A stretch of 64,000 bases of DNA, taken from a virus. The position numbers and the translations under genes were made by a program. The notes under the pieces were generated by a model. It saw only the letters and a program-made list of their open reading frames with translations. It had not been told where the DNA came from and ran no database searches. The stretch spans positions 79,942 through 143,941 of the IMG/VR virus record IMGVR_UViG_3300018080_000112. One strand, written 5' to 3'. Shown here in pieces: positions 3,707-45,458 of the stretch. How positions within the stretch are numbered: the first letter of the stretch is position 1; each line of letters starts with the position of its first letter.

Positions 3707-5587
3707 ATGACAACACACACCAACCTTTCAACCCAAACCATGGCGCGGCTCATCCATCACATGAAGTACGCCAAATACCTACCAGACCAGCAAAGAAGGG
3801 AAGAGTACAAAGAAACCGTTAGCCGGAACTTGATGATGCATGTCAAGAAATTTCCCCGGCTCGCACAAGAGATCTCAGAGGCTTACAAGTACGTTTTTGA
3901 CCGAAAAGTACTCCCCGCGATGCGATCAATGCAGTTTGCAGGGGAAGCAATCGAGCGCAACAACTGCAGGCTGTACAACTGTTCTTTTACCCACATCGAC
4001 CATCCAGACGTGTTTCAAGAGATTATGTTCCTCTTGTTGTCTGGTTGCGGCGTTGGGTACAGCGTGCAACAACAACACGTGGCGAAGCTTCCAAAGATAC
4101 AAAAGCCAGACGAACCCTTCACGTACAAAGTACCTGATTCAATCGAGGGATGGTCCCTTGCTGTGGGGAAGTTGATCGATGCTTTTTTGCGGGGTAAGCG
4201 CTTTCCAATCTTCGATTTTAGCGGAGTCAGACCAGCCGGATCACCAATCGTTACCAGCGGGGGGATCGCGCCTGGTCCTGGTCCTTTAAGCACTGCGCTT
4301 GTTGAGATACAGAACATACTGGTGAACAAGGCTCCTGGTTCGAAATTATCAACACTGGAGTGTCACGACATTCTTTGTCACCTTGCGCACGCCGTTCTCT
4401 CTGGCGGTGTCCGTCGTTCCTCTTATATCGCCCTTTTCAGCATTGACGACAAAGAGATGTTGGAGTGTAAGAGCGGCGAATGGTGGAAAGACAACCTCCA
4501 GCGCTCGCTTGCAAACAACTCCGCCGTGGTCTTGCGCAGTGAACTCCACGACCGAAGAGATCAAGTCAATGCAATCTGGGATCTCTTGGAAAACTCCCTA
4601 AGCGGCGAACCGAACATTTTCTTGACGAATGATCTTGATTGGGGTTGCAACCCTTGTGGTGAAATTGGCGGACCTAGCAACTTCTTTTGCAACCTGGATG
4701 AGATCAACGCGAGCAACGTCAAGAACCAGACAGACCTCGACCAGCGAGCGCTGATTGCTTCAAGGCTGGCGACCATTCAAGGCACATACACAGACTTCCC
4801 CTTCCTTCGCCCCATCTGGAAAGAAAGAGCCGAGCAAGCGGGTCTTATTGGCGTGGGAATGACCGGTATTTCTCGCGGGAACATTTTGGGTCTCAACCTC
4901 AAACGCGCCGCAAAAATTGTGCTGGCTGAAAATAAGCGTCTGGCGAAGCTTCTCGGCATTACAAAAGCGGAACGGTCCACAACCATTAAGCCATCTGGAA
5001 CGTCCTCTCTTGCCCTCTCAAATGGTCTTGTCGTGTCTTCTGGCATCCACCCCTACCACAGTCCCTTCTGGAAACGACGGATCACCGTCACACACACCGA
5101 ACCAGTCTACCAATATTTGATGAATGAACACCCCTGGCTTGTTGAGCCGTCCGCGTATCGACCAGAGAGGGAATCTGTGATTACTCTCCCGCAAGCCGCG
5201 CCAGATGGTGCAATCATGCGTGATGAGGGAGCCATGGCTCTTTTAGAGCGCGTCAAGTACTTCTATGACAACTGGATCTCCCCCGGTCACGTCACCGGAA
5301 AGAACACAAACAACATAAGCTGTACCGTATCTGTCAAAAAACATGAATGGCAAATGGTTCGGGATTGGTGGTGGAACAACACAGACTCTTTTGTGTCTCT
5401 CACCTTCATGAACTATGACGGCGGTGTCTACAAGCAAATGCCAATGGAAGAATGCAGCGAGAAAGAGTACAAGCGACTCGTCAAACAACTCCGACCCATG
5501 GATTTAAGAAGTGTGGTAGAGGAAAAGGATACAACGACAAGATCTCAAACTGTGGCTTGTGCTGGCGGTGCTTGCGAGCTAGTCTAA
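3707..5587 (+). CDS. nrdJ: Adenosylcobalamin-dependent (class II) ribonucleotide reductase, monomeric type
   Basis: Reduces ribonucleotides (triphosphates in the monomeric family) to deoxy forms for phage DNA synthesis, using vitamin B12 as radical source. The 626-residue protein keeps the family's cysteines in the right pattern: Cys92 in NCSF, the thiyl Cys317 and Glu319 in NPCGEI, Cys328 eleven residues later in FCNLDEI, and the C-terminal reducing pair Cys618/Cys623 in CAGGAC. It is shorter than the Lactobacillus-type enzyme (about 740) and lacks an ATP-cone. Start ATG has AGGAGAAG ahead. It is transcribed alone from P9 and converges on the zinc-finger gene, overlapping it by 4 bp. Confidence 0.93.
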   Translation: MTTHTNLSTQTMARLIHHMKYAKYLPDQQRREEYKETVSRNLMMHVKKFPRLAQEISEAYKYVFDRKVLPAMRSMQFAGEAIERNNCRLYNCSFTHIDHPDVFQEIMFLLLSGCGVGYSVQQQHVAKLPKIQKPDEPFTYKVPDSIEGWSLAVGKLIDAFLRGKRFPIFDFSGVRPAGSPIVTSGGIAPGPGPLSTALVEIQNILVNKAPGSKLSTLECHDILCHLAHAVLSGGVRRSSYIALFSIDDKEMLECKSGEWWKDNLQRSLANNSAVVLRSELHDRRDQVNAIWDLLENSLSGEPNIFLTNDLDWGCNPCGEIGGPSNFFCNLDEINASNVKNQTDLDQRALIASRLATIQGTYTDFPFLRPIWKERAEQAGLIGVGMTGISRGNILGLNLKRAAKIVLAENKRLAKLLGITKAERSTTIKPSGTSSLALSNGLVVSSGIHPYHSPFWKRRITVTHTEPVYQYLMNEHPWLVEPSAYRPERESVITLPQAAPDGAIMRDEGAMALLERVKYFYDNWISPGHVTGKNTNNISCTVSVKKHEWQMVRDWWWNNTDSFVSLTFMNYDGGVYKQMPMEECSEKEYKRLVKQLRPMDLRSVVEEKDTTTRSQTVACAGGACELV

Positions 5588-8500
5588 CCCTTCTTACTTC
5601 CGAATCTCCCCTTCATATACTCTTCATACGGAACAGAACCAACTTGCTCTTCTATCTCTTGTCTCTTTGCTGATTCTATCGCCGCCTTGTGGGATGCCTT
5701 TGACCGCTCCACCGGACTCATAGACTCTTCCGCCGCAATCTGTTCTCTCCTCTTTGCCTGATACTCTTCGACCTCTTTTTGTGTAATATCAGAGAGACTC
5801 TTCAACGTGATACCAGTCGATACACTAGCGGGAATCCCAATACCTGTTCCGCTCAAAATAGCGCTCAAACCTGATAGGAATCCCTCTATATCACCTGTCC
5901 ACGTCGTTTTCCCCCGCAGTGGTGAGAGAATACCATCCAGGAAAACACGCAAACGAGAGGTTGGCTCAAGATCCGCACTCGGTAGCCGTTCCCTCACTTT
6001 CGTCATGATCTGTTCGTAAATGTCTGGCTCTTCCTCTGGCTCTTCCCGTTCAGAGAAACCTTCTCCCTTCGTTGTCTCTGTCGGTGGTGGAAACGTACCT
6101 TCTGAGACAAACGCGCCACCCGCTGCGCTGAGTTCTTGACTGGCTGTAGAAAACGGCACTTCTTCTTTCACCATGCTTGTGCTCGTTCGCTCTACTTGTA
6201 TCCGACAATCAATCCCAAATTCACTCATAAACATTCGAGGTAGCTCACCAGACACCACAAAGTGACTCACAATCTTAAAGGACCGCCTTGAATAGGTGTT
6301 CGCACAAGTAAACCCAAGGCGAAGTTTCTGGGGTGCTACTTCCTCAACAATAGCGTATGTAAGAGCGTTCCCAAGCTGTTCATTTCTGATCTGAACACGA
6401 GAAACAATGTTGCTCCAGTCATAACCCCACATCGTTGCTGTTTGACTCTCCAGATGAACCCACGTCGGCGGTACTTGCAGCGTTGTAGGGTCCGGCTCCT
6501 CGATTGTCTCCGCCGGTACTACAACAACGGGAACAGGCTCCTTTGTACCCGTCTTTTTGATCACAGACTCCCGCAACAAAAACGCATTAGTTGAACACGC
6601 CTCCAACCGTGGTGAGTTTTCCAGTTCAGGACACGCCTGAACATCCTTGATGATATCGTCACAGATCTCCACCGTTCGCTCTTGACTCACCGCCTGGATG
6701 CACTGCGCCGCATTTAAGAGACACTCTTGCTGTTGGATGATGGTATCGTTGAGACGGTGCATTCGAGCCGCTTCAATGTAACAAGCATACGCCATCACCT
6801 GGTTACACTCGTCACGGTACTTCTTACCAAAATTCGACAGATGGATTCCCATCATAAACGGGTCAAGCTGAGCGCGTAACTGGTCTGTAATCACTTTCGC
6901 CTTTAGGTCAGACACAAGACCGGAAACGGATTGCTCTTCTCGGATATATGGTTTCTTGAGACCCCAAAGGTCATTCTCCAGCGTCTTGAGAACATCTTGA
7001 ACCACAAACGACTCCGTCTCTTGTCGTTCTCGCAACTTCTTTGTCCAGTCCTCCAGCGGTTCACTCCAGGCTTGTTCTTCCTGGTCTTGTTCAAGCTGAA
7101 TGATCCAATCCCGCAACCGCACCCGTTCCTGCAATAGGTCACGAAAACACTGCGAAACGCCCGTAAAAGCTTGCCCTATGAACACCCGCTGAAGAGAGAT
7201 GATACCAGCCCCTACAAGCTTCACCTCCATCGAATGTTCTGCACCCGATGATTTCACCGTCACAGACTGCGCCGTTACTTGTTCCAGTCCCGAGAGGATC
7301 TTTGCTGTTCTCGCTTCTGTCTTTGATAGTTTCTTTGTGTCCAGCGGCACAGCTTTCTCAGACCAGATCGGCGGGACCTCTTTCGGGATCTCTTTCGGCT
7401 CTTCTTTCTTTAGTGGTTCCTTAGCTAACTCCGCTCTGTTTCGGTCCCTTATCAGCCGCTTGAACGCCTCCAATGTTTTCGCATCTTTGGGAACATTAGA
7501 GAACAACACCCGAAAAATCTCGGTTTCATCTGGCGTCATTTCAACGTAGCCGTCTTCTGTTGGGAAAGAGACCGAGAAAGGTTTTGGCTCCTCCACTACA
7601 GGACTCGCTTCGAAGGGGATCTTCCCCACTCCGCCGCATGTCTTACATTGTTCCTCGCCAAACAAAGAATAACCTCTCCCTTGACAGTCGTGACAAGGAA
7701 CCAGCGGCTCTTCTTTGACTGGTTCTCTTTCCTTCCAGCCCTCGCCATCACAAGAGTTACAATCGATCCCCATATCATCTGTACCGACTCCGTCACACCA
7801 GGAACAAAGCACGACGTTTGGTTTTGTAGGTATGACACCATAGCCGCGACACCGCGAACATGTGATGTGTACGCCTACTTCGGTTGTTTCCCCGTTACCC
7901 GCGCAAATAGGACACTCTTTGGTCAACCCTTCTTCTGGTTCTTCTTCCACGTAATGCCAGCCCATTCCGTCACAATCTGGGCACTTATAAGGACTCCCCG
8001 CATAACTTGTTTCACCCGTCCCCTTGCACCGAACACACCACTCTGTTTCTCTTTTTGTTATCTCTGGCTCTTCTTTTGCTGCAAAAGGAGAGAAGACAGT
8101 TCCTTCTCCCTGGCAAGAAGGACAAACACCAGTAACAGCGCCGCGCTTCTCCACGACTCTACCAAACCCTTGGCAGTACTCGCACTCTTCCACATACCAC
8201 CACCCCAAACCGCCACATGTTGAACACTCTTCTGTGTATGTTTTTGCGCTCTGTACGTGACCAATCCCATCACAATCAGGACACTCTTTCTTCCGCTTTC
8301 CGTACTTCTCTGCATCCACAGAGCCAGTTCCCAAGCAACCATTACAATCAATCTCGTGACCAGAGACGGACAAAACACCCGTACCACCACAATCTGGACA
8401 ATCCTTCTGTGCTTTCTTCTCTGGTTCTCTCGCCTTTACCTTTTTGGGGTACTTCACTTCCTTGGTGCGCGTCCCTTTCCCCAAACACGGGACACAAAAG

Positions 8501-8601
8501 AGCGAACTATCATGCGCCGCTCTTCCAGTCCCTTTACAAGCGGAACACTCCACGGATTCAAAAACAGGCTGTTTTCTCTTTTCTATTCCTTTCCACGCCA
8601 T
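5584..8601 (-). CDS. Giant DnaJ-type zinc-finger protein with sixteen CxxCxGxG motifs
   Basis: A 1005-residue protein. The N-terminal third (about residues 17-340) carries sixteen CxxCxGxG motifs (CSACKGTG, CVPCLGKG, CPDCGGTG and so on). That is the equivalent of four DnaJ cysteine-rich domains, each normally built from four such motifs binding two zinc ions. There is no J-domain (no HPD). The remaining two thirds is helical with acidic linkers and a Gly/Ile-rich patch near 900, and matches nothing I know. In DnaJ this domain helps hold unfolded protein, so a chaperone or multi-site scaffold role is an inference. A separate J-domain protein lies at 35584-36060. Palindrome copy 2 sits just before its ribosome binding site AGGGGAAC. 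Confidence 0.85.
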   Translation of the reverse strand: MAWKGIEKRKQPVFESVECSACKGTGRAAHDSSLFCVPCLGKGTRTKEVKYPKKVKAREPEKKAQKDCPDCGGTGVLSVSGHEIDCNGCLGTGSVDAEKYGKRKKECPDCDGIGHVQSAKTYTEECSTCGGLGWWYVEECEYCQGFGRVVEKRGAVTGVCPSCQGEGTVFSPFAAKEEPEITKRETEWCVRCKGTGETSYAGSPYKCPDCDGMGWHYVEEEPEEGLTKECPICAGNGETTEVGVHITCSRCRGYGVIPTKPNVVLCSWCDGVGTDDMGIDCNSCDGEGWKEREPVKEEPLVPCHDCQGRGYSLFGEEQCKTCGGVGKIPFEASPVVEEPKPFSVSFPTEDGYVEMTPDETEIFRVLFSNVPKDAKTLEAFKRLIRDRNRAELAKEPLKKEEPKEIPKEVPPIWSEKAVPLDTKKLSKTEARTAKILSGLEQVTAQSVTVKSSGAEHSMEVKLVGAGIISLQRVFIGQAFTGVSQCFRDLLQERVRLRDWIIQLEQDQEEQAWSEPLEDWTKKLRERQETESFVVQDVLKTLENDLWGLKKPYIREEQSVSGLVSDLKAKVITDQLRAQLDPFMMGIHLSNFGKKYRDECNQVMAYACYIEAARMHRLNDTIIQQQECLLNAAQCIQAVSQERTVEICDDIIKDVQACPELENSPRLEACSTNAFLLRESVIKKTGTKEPVPVVVVPAETIEEPDPTTLQVPPTWVHLESQTATMWGYDWSNIVSRVQIRNEQLGNALTYAIVEEVAPQKLRLGFTCANTYSRRSFKIVSHFVVSGELPRMFMSEFGIDCRIQVERTSTSMVKEEVPFSTASQELSAAGGAFVSEGTFPPPTETTKGEGFSEREEPEEEPDIYEQIMTKVRERLPSADLEPTSRLRVFLDGILSPLRGKTTWTGDIEGFLSGLSAILSGTGIGIPASVSTGITLKSLSDITQKEVEEYQAKRREQIAAEESMSPVERSKASHKAAIESAKRQEIEEQVGSVPYEEYMKGRFGSKKG

Positions 8602-17725: not shown

Positions 17726-17758
17726 CGGGATTATGGTAGGTGGAAACTGGTGTGATTG

Positions 17759-18985
17759 TTAACCCTGTTCGGCTTGCTTCTCCAGGTATGCCTCGACATC
17801 ATCGACACTTTTGGGTTTCTCTTCTGCAGGAGCCTCCGAAGCGGGTGCCGCTTGTGGTGCGGGTGTCGGCGCAGGTTTGCCGGGTGCAGGCTTACCAGGG
17901 GCTGGCTTACCGGGTGTAGGCGCGGTCTCCGCCTCCATAGCCGGACCCTTGAACCACTTGAGACCAGTCACGGCGCGGAACGTGGCCGCACAGTGCGGAA
18001 CAAGCGCACAATCGAAACAGAATTGCTCTTTGGGATCTGGTTCCTGGCTGTAACACCATGGAACATCATCCTCTTTGGTGAAACCAGCCACACCATTCTG
18101 AACAAGCTGTTCCTTGCTCATCACCGCGCCGCCAGTGATCAACTGTTCGAACGCCTCCGGGTTGAGTCCAGGGGCGGGAGGAGGCGCGGAGTGTTCCGGC
18201 AACGCACCAGCCGAAGGAGCCGAACCAGGAAGGCTATTCTGGGAGTTGGTGTCTTCGCCGTAGTAGAGCGCCCGTGTCTCATCATAGGTGTTGCTCTTCC
18301 ACATGCGATGCTCATCCAGGTTCCCCTCACCACCCATGTACTTTTCCAGGGTCTCCATCTCGCTCTTCTCGGGAAAGACGGGACACTTTTCCGGGATAGG
18401 GAGGAAGCTGTACGTGGTGTTGAGACCTTCGCCGGTACGAGACATCTCCAGGTCATAACCTTCGAAGGGGTCCGTCACATCACCCCAATGAGCGCTTGCG
18501 AACAGGTCCAGCATCTTCTCATGAGCCATCCAGCCGATAGACAAGAACTTGATCTTCGCTTCGCCGATCAACTCTTGCTTCTCCTGAACCTCTTTGTCAG
18601 TCGCCTTGAAGACAGGGTCATCACGGTCGATCACCTGGTACACAAAACGGCGGTTGGGTTTGAGCTTCTTCGAACGAGACGCATCATCAGGGTGACCCGT
18701 TTCAGCAAGCTGTTCGCGCTGTTCGCAGACAAAGCACTTGTCTTCTCGCAACTGCGCTGGACAGTTCGCCCGTTTGCCGCCGGTGAGGTCCCAATGCTGA
18801 TACACCTTCTTATAAGGCAACTCCGCGTTTGGACCTTCAGCGGTCCAGGGGGGGAGAATCCGGATACGGTAGGTGATACCGTTCTTGGGGGTCAAAAAGA
18901 CCGCCGGAGTTCGCGACCCTTTGATAGGGGCGTCTGTGGTTTTCTGTTCTTTCGTCTTCTCTGTGTTTACTTTCACAAATCCCAT
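17759..18985 (-). CDS. gp32-like single-stranded DNA-binding protein
   Basis: Start chosen at MGFVKVNTE behind AAAGGA (408 residues); an ORF start 11 codons upstream lies in the leader hairpin. The N-terminal core (about 15-245) has the T4 gp32 layout: an OB-fold-like strand series (NGITYRIRILPP, YQHWDL) with an inserted zinc site around CPAQLREDKCFVCEQ, then a FLSIGW strand. A second cysteine set (CYSQEPDPKEQFCFDC, HC) lies near 305-330. The C-terminus is a Pro/Ala/Gly-Lys linker and an acidic end (SVDDVEAYLEKQAEQG), the usual protein-contact tail of SSBs. Neighbours recA and the mediator-like gene fit a recombination role. Not OB-fold SSB of the bacterial type. Confidence 0.8.
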   Translation of the reverse strand: MGFVKVNTEKTKEQKTTDAPIKGSRTPAVFLTPKNGITYRIRILPPWTAEGPNAELPYKKVYQHWDLTGGKRANCPAQLREDKCFVCEQREQLAETGHPDDASRSKKLKPNRRFVYQVIDRDDPVFKATDKEVQEKQELIGEAKIKFLSIGWMAHEKMLDLFASAHWGDVTDPFEGYDLEMSRTGEGLNTTYSFLPIPEKCPVFPEKSEMETLEKYMGGEGNLDEHRMWKSNTYDETRALYYGEDTNSQNSLPGSAPSAGALPEHSAPPPAPGLNPEAFEQLITGGAVMSKEQLVQNGVAGFTKEDDVPWCYSQEPDPKEQFCFDCALVPHCAATFRAVTGLKWFKGPAMEAETAPTPGKPAPGKPAPGKPAPTPAPQAAPASEAPAEEKPKSVDDVEAYLEKQAEQG

Positions 18986-19112
18986 CGGTTTGTTTTCCTT
19001 TTGTTTCCCTAAAGGCAACGCCTTTTCGGTTCCTTTTGAGTTCCTTTTTACTTCCCGCGATCAAAGTTGTTCTTGACCTATCATAGTTGTGGGGAACACG
19101 ACTTTCCCACGA
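18986..19112 (-). promoter_or_regulatory. Leader of ssb: hairpins and purine-rich repeat
   Basis: Leftward from the end of the mediator-like gene there is a hairpin GTGGGAA/TTCCC(C)AC (about 19089-19110) without a T-run. Next comes an unstructured purine-rich run with AAAAGGAAC-type units (about 19020-19050), then a small hairpin AAAGGC-GTT-GCCTTT just before the ribosome binding site. The layout recalls T4 gene 32, whose protein represses its own mRNA by coating an unstructured leader; autoregulation here is inference. Similar purine repeats and a hairpin lie in front of the sigma-like gene. Confidence 0.5.
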
Positions 19113-20370: not shown

Positions 20371-23300
20371 TTATGCAGCTTTCGCCAACGTCTCTATGAT
20401 CTCCGGTGTCAAATCCTTCTTGTCAGACCATGCCATATCTCCGCCAGCCACATACTCAAAATCCATCACAATGGGTGTTGAGCACCATGGTGCGGCGTCT
20501 TCCTCAAAAGCGACCTTAACGATCTGAGCCGACCTCTCCAGGTCCTCTTTGTGTACCAGGTATTGAATCTCGTCATGGATCGTGTTGATGCATTTAATTC
20601 GCAGACCTTCTCGCTTGAATCGTGCATAAGAAAGAGCCAGCCCTTTCTTGTACATATCCGCCGCCGATCCTTGAATCACGAAATTGGTCAGTTCTCGCTC
20701 TATTCCTTTGATGACCTTCATAGGGGTGTCTCGGTCCAGAAGTTCGTAGAACTCTCGTCTCCGTCCTTGTGCGTTAAGAATAACGCCGGTTCTTCTCGCG
20801 TCACGTCTGGTCTTTTCAATCCAGGAGATAACCATGGGTCGCGCCGTCATATATCGCTCAATGAAATCCTTGCATTCATCTTCTGAAGCATCGATCCCCG
20901 GCTCGAAACCGTCACCTTTGAACAGAATATCACTCAGCCCCTTTGGACCGACACCGTACACAATTGAGAAGTTCAACTGTTTTCCGATAGAACGGAGTGT
21001 TTTCCGCTCCTTTGCGTCCGCCCGATCCCATCTGTCCCCAAACATCGCCTCCGCAGTTGCTGCATGAATATCCAGCCCGTGTGCATACCCTTCAACAAGC
21101 GATGGCTCCTGACAGTAGTGGGTCAAGATGCGCACTTCGATCTGACTCAAATCAGCAAATACCCACACCCAATCCTTTTGTAGTTCCGGCGGGATAATAA
21201 AGATACCCTTTACAAGATGCGCCAAACGACCGCGAGAGGGGAAATTCTGCATGTTGGGTCCGCCACTTGAATTGTGGTTGATAAAACCATGCGCTATGTA
21301 ACTATGGTCTTCCTCAACCGCAATATCCCAAACATCCTCTATTCCGATTGACTCAATTCTTTGGATATAATGACCTCTATCTGGTCTAAAACATCCCCCA
21401 ATGAGGTCAGAACTTCTTTGTCGGTCACACGCAAAAGAAGAAACCCCTTCTCCTGTATAATCTTTTCTTTCTTTGCGTCTCGTTCCTTTGTTTTCTTGTC
21501 TTTGCGATGGTAATCGCCATCGACTTCCACAAGCAAATTTGCAGACGGAAGAAAGAAATCGACCATGTAATTTCGATACAAAATAAACTGACGTTCGTGT
21601 GCTATGTTTCTCTCCAAAAGACCGAGTGAAAGAAACAATTCTCCTCGATTTGTTGACCAACAAATATGGTCTCGTGGAACCTCGTTCTGTTCTCTTCGAT
21701 AACGGTGACCATTTGCCAACTCTTTGATGAACCAAAGCTGTTCGTTTACCTTGATAAATGCCAGATACAACAACTTGAAAAACTCGTGAGGTTTGTCGTA
21801 GTAATTTTTTGTTGCTTCCAGCAACCCTGGTGTCAAAACTTCCAGGCGTTCCAAGTAAACCAGATCCGTATCCTGCAACTTGTAAGGGAGCACTCCCGTA
21901 GGTTTCTTCAACTCGTGAAATTGTATGTTCTGGCGAACAAACCACTCTGTTGTATCGAACTTTCGCGCCAATTCCGAAAGAGACCAGCCATCTCTTAGAG
22001 ATTTTTCTAACTCCTCCTTTGGAATTACTACCGCTGGTTGTTCCTTTTTTCCGCGCTGATTTCCCATCATCGAACGGCGATAATTTAGCCGCTTTGATGA
22101 CTTGATCAAATCGCCGTACTTTTCTTTGTAGTACTTCTTTGAAGTGTTGATGACGTGACGGCTTACGCCGTATCGCCGAACCACTTCGGCATCTGTAATT
22201 CCTTCGTTCATTATCAGAACAAAGCTTTCTTCGTCGAATACCTTTCGGCGACCCCTTTCCACGGAATGTTCCAGAGTAATTACTCGGGGTACAAACTTCT
22301 CGTCCTTCTGCGAGTTCATCTAAACGCCTCCATCCCTTTGGCGTCAAAAAGCGATGCCCCGCTGTACACTTGATAAAAGAACCATTATCAAGTACAACCT
22401 TATACATCTCCTCCTGACCCTTATAATATTTATTCACGATTGGTCGATACCGACCTTTGTGGGTCAGGATAGATACATTCTGATTCTTTGTCAAATCAAG
22501 ATCTGATATTCTAAATTTTCCCATATTTGTCTCAAGCACCGTGTCCCCCGCAACACACAGCCGACCGGACTCTGTTCCTACTTGCCGAAAAGAGGCATGA
22601 ATACAATCGTCCTTCTCCGCTATTCGAGGCAACACGTTCAAGTATTTTGACTTCAGATCACGAGCCTTTCGCCACTTGTGGATATGTCCCGCGATCTCGT
22701 AGCCTTTCTTGTTCAACCGCATCAGCGAATCACCATCCAGAGAAGGAATCTGTTGGCTAGGTGGTAACTTCTTTGTTGCTTCTGTCGCCTTGATAATCGG
22801 GATCTTCATCTCTTTAAAGAGCGCCGCAACCTGGTCACCACTCCCCAGATTAATATCCCGCTGGATCATTTCGAAGATCTTCTCTTCCATCTCCTTCATG
22901 AGACCGTCAAGCTCAAGGCTGTTCGCGTCAACGCGCTCCCGGCTCACATACAGCCCTTCTCGCTCCATTTCATACAAGGGGTCAAGCAAGATGTGCTCTG
23001 TGATTGCCAGGTCTAACAAAGCTGGTACAGCCGCCACACGAGCCAAATAGTGCGCGGTAGCAATCCAGGTGAAGAACGTATCTCGTGCAGCATACGCCGC
23101 CATAATACTTGTCGTGATGTATTCGTAGTAAGCACGCCCAACCGGGTCTCGATCAGATGGCTTCTTCCACCGGTTCATGCGACACAACACGGTCACATAG
23201 ATCTCAAGCAACTTTTCAGCGGTAGCCGCTTCTGGATCTATATCTTCCGCTGCAACAATCTTCAAACCAGCCAGCTTGTCCGCGTAGATCAATCGCCGGA

Positions 23301-23841
23301 GAATCATCCCGTCAAGTGTCGGGTGCGGAGCAATCAGACCGTCATTTGCTCCCATGTGCCAATCGTATTTAGGGTTCCAGAACGCCCACAGACAGTCTGT
23401 TCGTTCATAGATGGGTGCCAGAGCCTCCGAGACCTTTTGCGGGTCAAGACAGGACTCCCCCGTTCGATGTCGAACAGGAATATACACATTCCGCAACTGG
23501 TCATGCGCCACATTCGCCAGCGGACCCAAATCCTTCCGGTAAGAGAACGAATAGCCAATGATGCGATGTCTCAGTTTGCCAAGACCTTCTGTTTCTGTAT
23601 CAGCCGAGATTGCTTTCGCGACTCGCAGATCTTCACAAACTTGGAGAAAAGCATCCCATGTGTTGATCAACTCGAACTGTTCATCCGCCTCCAATATACC
23701 AGGAAATTCTTTCTCCTTTTGTAGGTCCACCTCAGAGGGGAGAACAACATCATCATCATCATAAACGCGGATGTTCTCGCCATTCAGGTCCCTCACAAAC
23801 GTCTGTTGTTTAGAGAACAAACCTAGCTGTTGTTTCGCCAT
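20371..23841 (-). CDS. polA: Family A DNA polymerase with intein (1156-codon precursor)
   Basis: Start chosen at MAKQQLGLF, behind GGGGAG and one base after the previous stop. The replicative polymerase has a 3'-5' exonuclease domain (ADTETEG near 90, WNPKYDW, and YAARDTFF) and no 5' nuclease domain. Polymerase motifs lie in the C-extein: A FADLSQIEVR, B RSIGKQLNFSIVYG, C NTIHDEIQ. After residue 428 (SGRL) a 429-residue intein splits the conserved SGRL-SSGGPNMQN template/primer loop; splicing would join 428 + 299 residues. The intein frame stays open across an endonuclease gene in another frame. First residue after the intein is Ser. Active polymerase depends on splicing. Confidence 0.93.
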   Translation of the reverse strand: MAKQQLGLFSKQQTFVRDLNGENIRVYDDDDVVLPSEVDLQKEKEFPGILEADEQFELINTWDAFLQVCEDLRVAKAISADTETEGLGKLRHRIIGYSFSYRKDLGPLANVAHDQLRNVYIPVRHRTGESCLDPQKVSEALAPIYERTDCLWAFWNPKYDWHMGANDGLIAPHPTLDGMILRRLIYADKLAGLKIVAAEDIDPEAATAEKLLEIYVTVLCRMNRWKKPSDRDPVGRAYYEYITTSIMAAYAARDTFFTWIATAHYLARVAAVPALLDLAITEHILLDPLYEMEREGLYVSRERVDANSLELDGLMKEMEEKIFEMIQRDINLGSGDQVAALFKEMKIPIIKATEATKKLPPSQQIPSLDGDSLMRLNKKGYEIAGHIHKWRKARDLKSKYLNVLPRIAEKDDCIHASFRQVGTESGRLCVAGDTVLETNMGKFRISDLDLTKNQNVSILTHKGRYRPIVNKYYKGQEEMYKVVLDNGSFIKCTAGHRFLTPKGWRRLDELAEGREVCTPSNYSGTFRGKGSPKGIRRRKLCSDNERRNYRCRSGSAIRRKPSRHQHFKEVLQRKVRRFDQVIKAAKLSPFDDGKSARKKGTTSGSNSKGGVRKISKRWLVSFGIGAKVRYNRVVCSPEHTISRVEETYGSAPLQVAGYGSGLLGTPGSFDTRVAGSNKKLLRQTSRVFQVVVSGIYQGKRTALVHQRVGKWSPLSKRTERGSTRPYLLVNKSRRIVSFTRSFGEKHSTRTSVYFVSKLHGRFLSSVCKFACGSRWRLPSQRQENKGTRRKERKDYTGEGVSSFACDRQRSSDLIGGCFRPDRGHYIQRIESIGIEDVWDIAVEEDHSYIAHGFINHNSSGGPNMQNFPSRGRLAHLVKGIFIIPPELQKDWVWVFADLSQIEVRILTHYCQEPSLVEGYAHGLDIHAATAEAMFGDRWDRADAKERKTLRSIGKQLNFSIVYGVGPKGLSDILFKGDGFEPGIDASEDECKDFIERYMTARPMVISWIEKTRRDARRTGVILNAQGRRREFYELLDRDTPMKVIKGIERELTNFVIQGSAADMYKKGLALSYARFKREGLRIKCINTIHDEIQYLVHKEDLERSAQIVKVAFEEDAAPWCSTPIVMDFEYVAGGDMAWSDKKDLTPEIIETLAKAA
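21271..22557 (-). mobile_element. Intein in polA, 429 residues, with endonuclease in another frame
   Basis: N-terminal splicing block A is CVAGDTVLET (Cys1), block B SFIKCTAGHRFLTPKGW (T..H). C-terminal block F is EDVWDIAVEEDHSYIAHGFI and block G ends HN before Ser. Only these ends look like a normal protein. About 300 residues between them in the polymerase frame are Arg/Ser/Lys/Gly-rich and read like nonsense. In the other frame the same DNA gives a proper endonuclease that begins just after block B and stops just before block F. The intein therefore has splicing parts in one frame and a homing nuclease in another. Confidence 0.9.
21339..22319 (-). CDS. EDxHD/Vsr-like (DUF559-type) homing endonuclease nested in the intein
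   Basis: A 326-residue protein in a different frame from polA. It has its own ATG, 7 nt after a GGAGG that also codes intein residues. The N-terminal part has two helix-turn-helix-like units (about 25-60: ITDAEVVRRYGVSRHVI; about 95-130: SLSELARKFDTTEWFV). The C-terminal domain reads YMVDFFLPSANLLVEVDGDYH, then a Lys/Glu helix and GFLLLRVTDKEV, the PD-(D/E)XK core of DUF559/EDxHD nucleases, which is related to Vsr. It would cut intein-less polA alleles to spread the intein. Nucleases of this class are known beside split inteins in phage genes; the overlap in a second frame is the odd part. Confidence 0.88.
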   Translation of the reverse strand: MNSQKDEKFVPRVITLEHSVERGRRKVFDEESFVLIMNEGITDAEVVRRYGVSRHVINTSKKYYKEKYGDLIKSSKRLNYRRSMMGNQRGKKEQPAVVIPKEELEKSLRDGWSLSELARKFDTTEWFVRQNIQFHELKKPTGVLPYKLQDTDLVYLERLEVLTPGLLEATKNYYDKPHEFFKLLYLAFIKVNEQLWFIKELANGHRYRREQNEVPRDHICWSTNRGELFLSLGLLERNIAHERQFILYRNYMVDFFLPSANLLVEVDGDYHRKDKKTKERDAKKEKIIQEKGFLLLRVTDKEVLTSLGDVLDQIEVIISKELSQSE

Positions 23842-23842
23842 C

Positions 23843-24400
23843 TCACTCCCCTTCACTATCTGTTTTCAAGTAGCCAAACCACACATAAAATCCGTCACCC
23901 AAGTACTCAATATCCTCTCTCTTTCGCATCTTCCGCTTCAGTAGTATATACTCAGGATCTTTGTTCACAGTGTAATTACCACCCGTCATACACTCCAAGA
24001 TCGGACCTAGATCATACACATGCATGATTCGACCAGCAAGGCGCAAGATCCTACTGCAAATGTACATATAATCATTGGGTCTCGTCGGACCACGAGAAGA
24101 CTCTTCCCATGCCCACCGGATCATTTTCGCATCTGTGAATTGAAGGAGACAGGCTTGATTCAGATTACAGCGGTCGGTACAAAGAAAGTTACCAGCATCA
24201 TACGAGTTACCAAAGCAACTTGGTGGATCAATCTCTCCTTTGTCTTGTAGTTCATGGACAACACAACGAGCGCACAACATCTTCTGGAGACTAAAACGAC
24301 CAATGTGCGCCTCTTCCTCCAACACAACAAGACCACACTCTTGACAAACAAGCTGACTAGGTTGCTTGTCCTTTTTCTTTCGTGTTCTCTTCGCACTCAT
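23843..24400 (-). CDS. Cysteine-rich protein of unknown function
   Basis: A 185-residue protein. A basic N-terminus (KRTRKKKDK) is followed by CQECG near 18 and CARC near 43, forming a treble-clef-like zinc site. A second Cys set (CFGN, CTDRCNLNQAC, residues 62-85) follows. The C-terminal half is a compact alpha/beta segment with many Tyr and Met. It overlaps the end of the sigma-like gene (ATGA) and ends one base before polA, so it is coupled to both. Possibly a DNA- or polymerase-binding factor; no family recognised. Confidence 0.7.
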   Translation of the reverse strand: MSAKRTRKKKDKQPSQLVCQECGLVVLEEEAHIGRFSLQKMLCARCVVHELQDKGEIDPPSCFGNSYDAGNFLCTDRCNLNQACLLQFTDAKMIRWAWEESSRGPTRPNDYMYICSRILRLAGRIMHVYDLGPILECMTGGNYTVNKDPEYILLKRKMRKREDIEYLGDGFYVWFGYLKTDSEGE

Positions 24401-43605: not shown

Positions 43606-43618
43606 GTTAGGACCTAAC
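43606..43618. promoter_or_regulatory. Palindrome GTTAGGWCCTAAC (copy 8)
   Basis: Contains the TAG stop of the methyltransferase gene; lies 20 nt before the chosen start of the protease gene. Confidence 0.75.
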
Positions 43619-45458
43619 CTTTCTCGCCATCGCTGTTCATGAAATCGAAAATAGAGGTTTGACCCTTTCCCTCTTTCTTGATCTTAGTCTCGATCATTTT
43701 TCGAGCTTTATCCAGCGATCCAAGCTGATCAAACTCAATTTGTTGTTTCGCCGCCTCGACTCGCTCTGTCGCAATCTCAATATAATCAGCGTTACACTCC
43801 ACACCGAGGAATCTGAATCCTTCCATCAACGCAGCAACACCTGTGGTTCCACTTCCTGTAAATGGGTCTAATACAACCCCCTCCGGCGGCGTCACCAAAC
43901 GAACCAGATAGCGCATAAGCTTGATCGGTTTGACTGTGGGGTGGATATTGGTTCTCTTTGTCTCTCCGCGTTGATACGGGGTGTCTATCGGTGTGCTTCG
44001 ACCATTGGTGACCTTTTTGCCATTTCGTTCCTCTAGCCCCTCCTCTTTCTCAGATCGGGACGCTTTCGGAATGTAGATGAACGGAGGAGCCGCTTCCAGG
44101 TTTAGAAAAAACCGCGCCGCTGTCCCCTCATCCTCATAACCTGTTCTCTCCACTGGTTTTGTGACCTTGCCACCCACATAACCATCGCTTTGCCAGCCAG
44201 CTTGACCGCCTTCGTGTCCTTTACTACTCCCGCTTTGTTCCCCGAGAAGACGAACAGGACACTGTGGAACACACACATAGTCCTTCACTTCCTCTTTGCC
44301 GTCGTTGCTTACTTGACCATCCGTGTACTGAACAGAGCCAATCCCGAACATAGAGGCGTCACCGTCTCCCTTTGACGCCTTACCACTCCCGTTTGAAGGC
44401 TTGACTCTCTTTGTTCCTTTGCAGATGCAGTCCGGGTGATGCGTCAGCAACAAGTGACTAGGCCAGCGACCCTTCAATTCTCCCTCTGTAGTCTGTCTAT
44501 ATGTTTCCTCAGAGGTTCTAACTTGCCAGCTTCCTTCGTCCTCGTACTTGATCACCGTCTTTGATTTGCGCCGCGCCGCCGCTGTGGATTGTTCTCCCTG
44601 AAAAGAGATCCGACAAGCGTCAATATTCACCGCGCCTGTTCCGAACTGGAGAACAGTTTCAGCAACCGACCCGATCAACGGTTTGCGAGCCAACCACCAA
44701 TCTTCTACTGATGGCTTGAGCGCGAGACCATATCCTTCATACGCTTGTGCTTCTGGTGTCGCCGGTCTCGTTATAAACGCTTCCACTTCATCTTCTTGTG
44801 GTTCTGCACGTCCGTAGTTGTCGCCCTTCATATCAAAGTGACGCCCGTCAAGATTCGGATTTGAGCCTACCACTTCTCGAAATGTTCCCGCTTCGCGTTC
44901 CAGGCGTTCACGAAGCTCATCATGGACCGAAAGAAGTTTCTTGACCGCTTCTTTGTCTCCTTCTTTCTTTGCGTCTTGCACGGCTCGCTTGGCGTCATAA
45001 AGAGCCTGTTTCTCTTCCCCGTGTTCCTTGAGCCACAGATGGAACATGTGTTTGTCTATCGCCTTCGACACATCCATGTTTTTCGGGAATCCTGAACCCA
45101 CGACGTGCGCAATTCGGTCCCTGATCTCAAAACCAGCAGACTCGATAGCCCACGCAGTCCAATGGCTTGTTCGCGGAATAGCCCAACACAACATGTGTCC
45201 ACCGGGCTTGAGAACACGCAAGCAAGCGGTCATCACGTCCGTCATCCACGAGACCCACGCATCCCGACCACCCTTGTCCGTATCCCAATCTTTGTTCATG
45301 AATGCGATACCAGACGGCTACGGAGGGTCAGTCACGATTGCATCGCATGTGTTGTCCGGCAATTCCCGCAACACATCCAGGCAATCTCCCAGACGAAGCT
45401 GATATGACTCTTCGCCTAGAATTGACTGACCCAATTCTCCTTTTATTTGTTTACCCAC
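43614..45458 (-). pseudogene. Class-beta DNA methyltransferase interrupted by an amber codon in DPPY
   Basis: Read through, the 614-codon frame is a full N6-adenine/N4-cytosine methyltransferase. GTG start (45458) follows GGGGAGTAATCC. Motif IV VTDPP comes first; then the frame has TAG (45318-45320) where the catalytic Tyr of DPPY belongs, followed by PSGIAFMNKDWD. Motif I LDPFTGSGTTG is near the end. A shorter frame starting at the ATG at 45299 lacks DPPY and cannot be a methylase. One base change would restore the Tyr. A frameshift is not needed. Sequencing error, a true inactivating mutation, or read-through are possible; the gene's own terminator is also TAG, arguing against recoding. It lies immediately beside an HNH gene. 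Confidence 0.75.

Follow-up and report, generated by a model that had tools for sequence, protein, structure and literature searches.

How can a viral polymerase gene stay free of stop codons through an insertion whose middle gives no recognizable protein in the polymerase frame, and how can the same DNA hold a complete nuclease gene in another frame? The question is raised by polA (family A DNA polymerase), which lies on the minus strand of a 64,000-nt stretch of viral DNA (hereafter the window; positions 79,942 to 143,941 of the 143,941-base IMG/VR record IMGVR_UViG_3300018080_000112). We consider it highly probable that the insertion is a mobile phage polA intein and that its homing endonuclease has a gene of its own, overprinted on the intein linker in the +1 frame.

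The polA intein and the gene inside it

The polA open reading frame (ORF; 20371–23856, minus strand) starts with GTG and encodes 1161 aa (DNA_pol_A, E = 6e-71); there are zero stops across its 1161 codons and the host gene is not split into two ORFs. The intein (21271–22557, minus strand; 429 residues, polA C434 to N862) begins with C1, ends in HN and has Ser as its +1 residue. It separates an N-extein (22558–23856, minus strand; last residues ...GTESGRL) from a C-extein (20371–21270, minus strand) that starts with SSGGPNMQNFP, the conserved family A motif containing the insertion site. The N-terminal splicing domain (22273–22557, minus strand; residues 1–95) holds block A (CVAGDT) and block B (CTAGH), and the C-terminal splicing region (21271–21387, minus strand; residues 391–429) holds block F (DVWDIAVEEDHSY) and block G (FINHN). 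All splicing motifs are kept, and the splicing residues C1, T65..H68 and H428-N429 are invariant in 12 relatives, with Ser at +1. Pfam Intein_splicing matches with E = 2e-13, and NCBIfam intein_Nterm and intein_Cterm both pass their cut-offs. The ORF, the profile matches and the motifs together bear out the preliminary description of this DNA, which had the polA frame open through a 429-residue intein.

When the intein frame was modelled with AlphaFold, only residues 1–95 and 391–429 folded (predicted local distance difference test, pLDDT, ~95). The overprinted middle (21388–22272, minus strand; residues 96–390), which contains neither a stop nor an ATG, is predicted to be disordered, with nearly all residues at pLDDT <50. 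A Foldseek search with the folded ends returned mini-inteins (Mtu RecA, Ssp DnaB and gp41-1 inteins; E down to 6e-8) and thus points to a Hint fold, and the in-frame middle gave no matches in a profile search; the nuclease is not in the intein reading frame.

It is found one base (+1) ahead of the polA frame, where a gene for an EDxHD/Vsr-like homing endonuclease of 326 aa extends over 21339–22319 (minus strand; ATG at 22319, TAG at 21341–21339). The protein matches DUF559 (E = 2e-13), and a profile of 17 nuclease relatives matches I-Bth0305I (3r3p, E = 2e-11) and 3hrl, with Vsr (1vsr) also among the top PDB matches. Its DUF559/Vsr-like catalytic domain (residues 239–317; 21369–21605, minus strand) includes D254, E265, D267 and D281, which are invariant in the 17 relatives, as distant as 15–43% identity. 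The AlphaFold model of the nuclease frame reaches a mean pLDDT of 86 and again finds I-Bth0305I as best PDB match (template modelling score 0.80 of target), so the nuclease is predicted to have a Vsr-like PD-(D/E)xK fold with a conserved acidic active site. While the relatives and structure matches uphold the earlier assignment of this protein, the gene does not fit exactly between block B and block F, as had been stated; it overlaps both splicing regions, i.e. the end of the N-splicing domain and the start of the C-splicing region, and 68 nt separate its stop from the end of the intein.

The start of the nuclease gene is likewise embedded in intein coding sequence. A Shine-Dalgarno element (TGGAGG, 22327–22332, minus strand; duplex −9.3 kcal/mol) is written by the intein codons G-W-R, and the same conserved 'GW-R' codons (TGGAGG) are present in one relative, L045. 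In overprinted inteins that carry an HNH nuclease, the Shine-Dalgarno element comes from the intein codons 'G(D/E/Q)E(V/I)' (GGAGGT and similar), with ATG or GTG at the homologous place; the duplex at 15 such homologous starts (−8.3 kcal/mol) is stronger than that at internal ATG/GTG codons (−2.7 kcal/mol, p = 4e-8). Independent relatives thus back both the internal start at 22319 and the overprinted gene pair that the preliminary description had proposed.

On this evidence, ribosomes starting at polA would read through the overlap and make a precursor with a ~295-residue meaningless loop, and the splicing domain would fold from its two ends and excise itself plus the loop. Other ribosomes would start at the Shine-Dalgarno element and ATG inside the block B codons and make free nuclease, which would cut polA copies lacking the intein and thereby cause the entire element to be copied into them.

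Relatives, phase and stop codons

Relatives of the locus were collected by pattern scans of IMG/VR viral contigs (HN followed by xxxx PN.QN.P, 57 loci; C-intein DHSY end, at least 119 stretches; PN.QQ.P, 23) and were classed by an N-intein profile, then by host-frame stops and open runs in the other frames; locus counts, phases and classes given here hold among the matches listed. At least 32 relatives share the layout, which makes at least 33 loci, window included, with an open host frame and a long +1 ORF (at least 29 non-redundant after 90% clustering). Two unrelated nuclease families occupy the 29 loci, EDxHD/DUF559-like (12) and HNH_3 (17), the latter matching I-HmuI (1u3e, E = 6e-6). All 32 relatives and the window are in +1 and none is credible in +2; the one +2 candidate, L094 (G+C (GC) content 0.70), was rejected as a high-GC artefact. 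In-frame endonuclease inteins in the same survey have 7–40 stops in +1, and mini-inteins are without an insert. Searching viral contigs and phages with one protein at a time (the nuclease, the C-extein or the intein ends) gave no close relative, the scan of genome contigs for a polA DHSY intein gave 0 matches, and the A2 nuclease profile added no loci beyond L045/L055.

Most C-exteins (25/27) match family A polymerase, and that of L067 matches Mu F-like minor head protein, which indicates that the overprinted layout is not confined to polA. In L067 (1655–3195, oriented on the minus strand), the overprinted intein interrupts this Mu F-like minor head gene, and its Vsr-like nuclease is rich in cysteine; another such intein outside polA, L147 (1104–2682, oriented on the minus strand), lies in a short gene of uncertain identity and has an HNH nuclease. 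Nuclease and intein distances agree in both sets and correlate in the EDxHD set (r = 0.66, p = 5e-4), where intein and polA distances are uncorrelated (r = 0.11, p = 0.23). This is the pattern expected of a unit that moves between phages.

The open frame is not what chance would leave. A null model that preserves the nuclease protein and codon usage of the window predicts 20.7 stops in the polA frame, where 0 are present (log10 P = −11.4); in the third frame, serving as control, there are 22 stops (18 expected). None of the other main genes of the window, 28 in all, has a same-strand +1 run without stops of more than 135 codons, compared with the 326 codons at polA. Each of the 29 non-redundant overprinted loci has 0 host-frame stops over the nuclease (4.6–20.7 expected each). 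Across all loci, the counts are bimodal: 0 in overprinted loci or 31–51 in fractured loci (split inteins at the same site, discussed below), with no intermediate locus. T-ending nuclease codons occur in 0/1960 cases before AA, AG or GA in the overprinted loci and in 1285/5432 cases before other codons, whereas fractured loci show no such avoidance (236/619 versus 332/1030).

Why the phase is always +1 can be explained without invoking function, because host stops in this phase are always removable. A host stop in +1 always reads NNT|AA, NNT|AG or NNT|GA across two nuclease codons, and the change from NNT to NNC is always synonymous; by computation, any nuclease sequence is therefore compatible with an open host frame in +1. 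A dynamic programme run on 35 nucleases found no unavoidable host stops in +1 and 1.8 per nuclease on average in +2. The NNT/NNC synonymy may be the historical cause of the +1 phase, and the start geometry may contribute to the preference. For GC-rich phages, the chance that a 200-codon HNH gene is open in the host frame from the start is ~1/200 to 1/1000 (per-locus probabilities). An overprinted intein could accordingly be born from an HNH gene that was open by chance, and homing could then spread the whole unit.

Substitutions between close pairs show which of the two frames is conserved. Differences fall in excess on third positions of nuclease codons (L178/L180: 24/14/69 at positions 1/2/3), and the host-frame peptide of this pair (58% identity) is no more conserved than the unread third frame (60%). 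Purifying selection acts on the nuclease codons and conserves the protein that they encode, while the host frame is selected only to remain stop-free and thus readable, and its amino acids do not matter.

We thought it very improbable that the element is dead, with an intein that still splices, a nuclease that is decaying or unused and a frame that is open by inheritance. Mini-inteins without a nuclease at the same site (L004/L034, L089, L148) do show that the nuclease is dispensable. Against this stand the third-position bias, the conserved starts and the catalytic residues that are invariant over the 17 relatives; moreover, an open frame needs continuing selection, since every change from NNC to NNT costs the nuclease nothing. 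A sequencing error hiding a frameshift is ruled out, because the layout recurs in unrelated contigs. In L119 (2460–3319, oriented), a near-copy of L072, neither the host nor the nuclease frame is intact, owing to a frameshift within the overlap that reflects sequencing error or recent decay.

Several points weigh against an overprinted mobile intein. We infer splicing, internal initiation and translation, and cutting. All overprinted loci come from uncultured contigs; we found no cultured phage with the layout, the intein matches in cultured phages being mini-inteins, in-frame or fractured loci only. Six EDxHD relatives (L065, L106, L143, L150, L187, L055) are without an obvious strong Shine-Dalgarno element and ATG at the homologous place. 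Finally, the overprinted class is defined by zero stops, so that pooled probabilities are inflated by selection. The fair evidence is the bimodality of 0 or 31–51 stops, single loci that are improbable alone (e.g. the window) and a third frame that behaves as expected.

Fractured genes, frameshifting and introns

One alternative is that polA is really a fractured, split-intein gene whose halves are made separately and trans-splice, the open frame being incidental. Split inteins with free-standing EDxHD/Vsr-like endonucleases are reportedly known from fractured genes, and they resemble our locus in nuclease family, in the phage DNA-replication context and in the position of the nuclease gene between the splicing halves. 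The likeness extends to phase: polA inteins that are fractured and carry an EDxHD or HNH nuclease in +1 were found in our survey (L003/L058, L024, L054, L071, L149/L170, L157; 6 same-phase fractured loci after 90% clustering). They differ in that the host gene is broken and needs trans-splicing, whereas here the frame is unbroken and cis-splicing is expected. Fractured loci have 31–51 stops, as by chance, and overprinted loci 0. An ATG for the C-half lies exactly 114 nt before the intein end in 6/6 fractured but 1/29 overprinted loci; in the window, the 240 nt preceding block F contain neither ATG nor GTG nor TTG. We therefore give little credence to the split-gene explanation for this locus.

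The two kinds of loci are nevertheless related. In a tree of the splicing regions, the fractured polA loci group together as a single clade (100/98), nested in a 19-row set (97/86) that otherwise consists of EDxHD overprinted inteins and mini-inteins. The suggestion that such a gene pair is a missing link to split inteins therefore stands in so far as +1 fractured polA inteins nest within the EDxHD overprinted set; it falls short on direction, for which the deciding nodes are weak. The direction from overprinted to fractured seems likelier than the reverse, because it is implausible that a frame with ~30 stops would become open again in the absence of selection. The GC content of overprinted loci (0.43–0.63) differs from that of fractured loci (0.28–0.35; p = 1e-6). 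This contrast is real but counts as one evolutionary event, not as proof, since the fractured polA loci form one clade. We tentatively suggest, at somewhat less than even confidence, that the polA split inteins descend from overprinted inteins, along a +1 route opened to any nuclease by the NNT/NNC synonymy. In genomes that are not AT-rich, selection would keep stops out of the host frame where the +1 nuclease lies, and the intein would splice in cis. Once a start codon for the C-half arose (the ATG 114 nt before the end), the host frame would be released, and stops would then build up to chance level, leaving a split intein with a free-standing endonuclease.

Fractured inteins of other kinds were also observed. 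In the cultured Pectobacterium phages Amona and Abuela (L191 and L192, 3075–6185), the helicase gene is fractured by a split intein, a LAGLIDADG endonuclease ORF overlaps both helicase halves in +2, and the host halves share one frame. Seven further fractured inteins (L081, L101, L117, L132, L144, L156, L158) belong to AT-rich phages (GC 0.21–0.33), many of them in the host motif 'SxCxTRxxTG'; their N- and C-halves are in different frames, the long ORF is in +1 or +2, and there is no phase rule.

The nuclease might instead arise by programmed +1 frameshifting near block B, as a fusion to the N-extein and N-intein. The phase is indeed always +1, and in some loci the +1 frame is open upstream of the nuclease start. 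However, a +1-frame stop lies directly or 1–2 codons upstream of the start in the window, L088, L159, L098, L054 and L024, and the starts are kept as ATG or GTG with a strong Shine-Dalgarno element, so that frameshifting is a poor candidate.

Still fainter is the prospect that the nuclease resides in a group I or other RNA intron that leaves the mRNA, with the intein resemblance secondary. Homologous HNH genes do occur in polA introns of cultured phages (e.g. Pf-WMP3, PhAPEC7), but at the gathering threshold Rfam matched neither the window nor four relatives. The complete set of splicing motifs and a confidently predicted splicing-domain fold coincide with the exact insertion boundaries, and an intron has no need of an open host frame. 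HNH genes in polA of cultured phages, some annotated as intron-borne, are 40–45% identical to overprinted ones, and the HNH insert in polA of Phormidium phage Pf-WMP3 (L173, 3300–4300) splits the PN^IQQIP motif at a point a few codons away from where the intein sits. These sequences would fit a single endonuclease lineage that reaches one and the same target with either carrier, RNA intron or intein.

Relation to known systems and significance

The closest solved structures of the two nuclease families, I-Bth0305I (EDxHD) and I-HmuI (HNH), are encoded in self-splicing RNA introns, which, unlike an intein, need no open host frame. Classical in-frame LAGLIDADG or HNH inteins have the nuclease DNA at the same intein point, between block B and block F; there, however, the nuclease is part of the intein polypeptide, whereas here it is a separate protein in another frame. 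The ShiLan domain, with the Pacc40 gp60 insertion, is an out-of-frame HNH insertion without an intein (Arsenault, Gosselin, Gogarten 2025, PMC11855218), and a genome note likewise names an out-of-frame HNH in a methylase, without an intein (PMC12613952). In the ShiLan case, as in polA, a nuclease gene lies out of frame in a phage gene whose own frame is open and featureless in translation; that insertion, however, has no intein splicing motifs and is thought to remain in the methylase (PMC11855218). The polA loci do not belong to this type of insertion without a splicing domain, since a true intein surrounds the nuclease; they are also always in +1, have the Shine-Dalgarno element in intein codons and use EDxHD as well as HNH nucleases. 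The methylase of the window (43614–45299) was checked and contains no ShiLan-type insertion. In full-text literature searches, with preprints and most subscription papers outside their scope, the ShiLan domain was the one close precedent, and we found no description of an overprinted endonuclease inside a true intein.

Two other features of the window may be mentioned. A 418-codon antisense ORF (17756–19012, plus strand) covers the whole SSB-like gene (17759–19018, minus strand); as ~1 stop is expected after codon shuffling and 1 is seen, it was dismissed as chance. In a 1005-aa protein (5584–8601, minus strand), six segments match the DnaJ CXXCXGXG zinc-finger domain and there is also an Anti-TRAP match, which is unusual for a phage protein.

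Taken as an overprinted mobile intein, the polA locus represents an additional intein architecture, with the endonuclease nested inside but out of frame. The two genes overlap on the same strand over a long distance, one lying wholly within the other, and there is a simple reason for the single phase. The locus places out-of-frame insertions and fractured split inteins in one series with inteins that have an in-frame endonuclease, and a comparison of overprinted with fractured relatives at one polA site puts the origin of split inteins within reach of a test. Annotation pipelines can overlook nucleases of this kind, since with its frame open the gene resembles one long polymerase.
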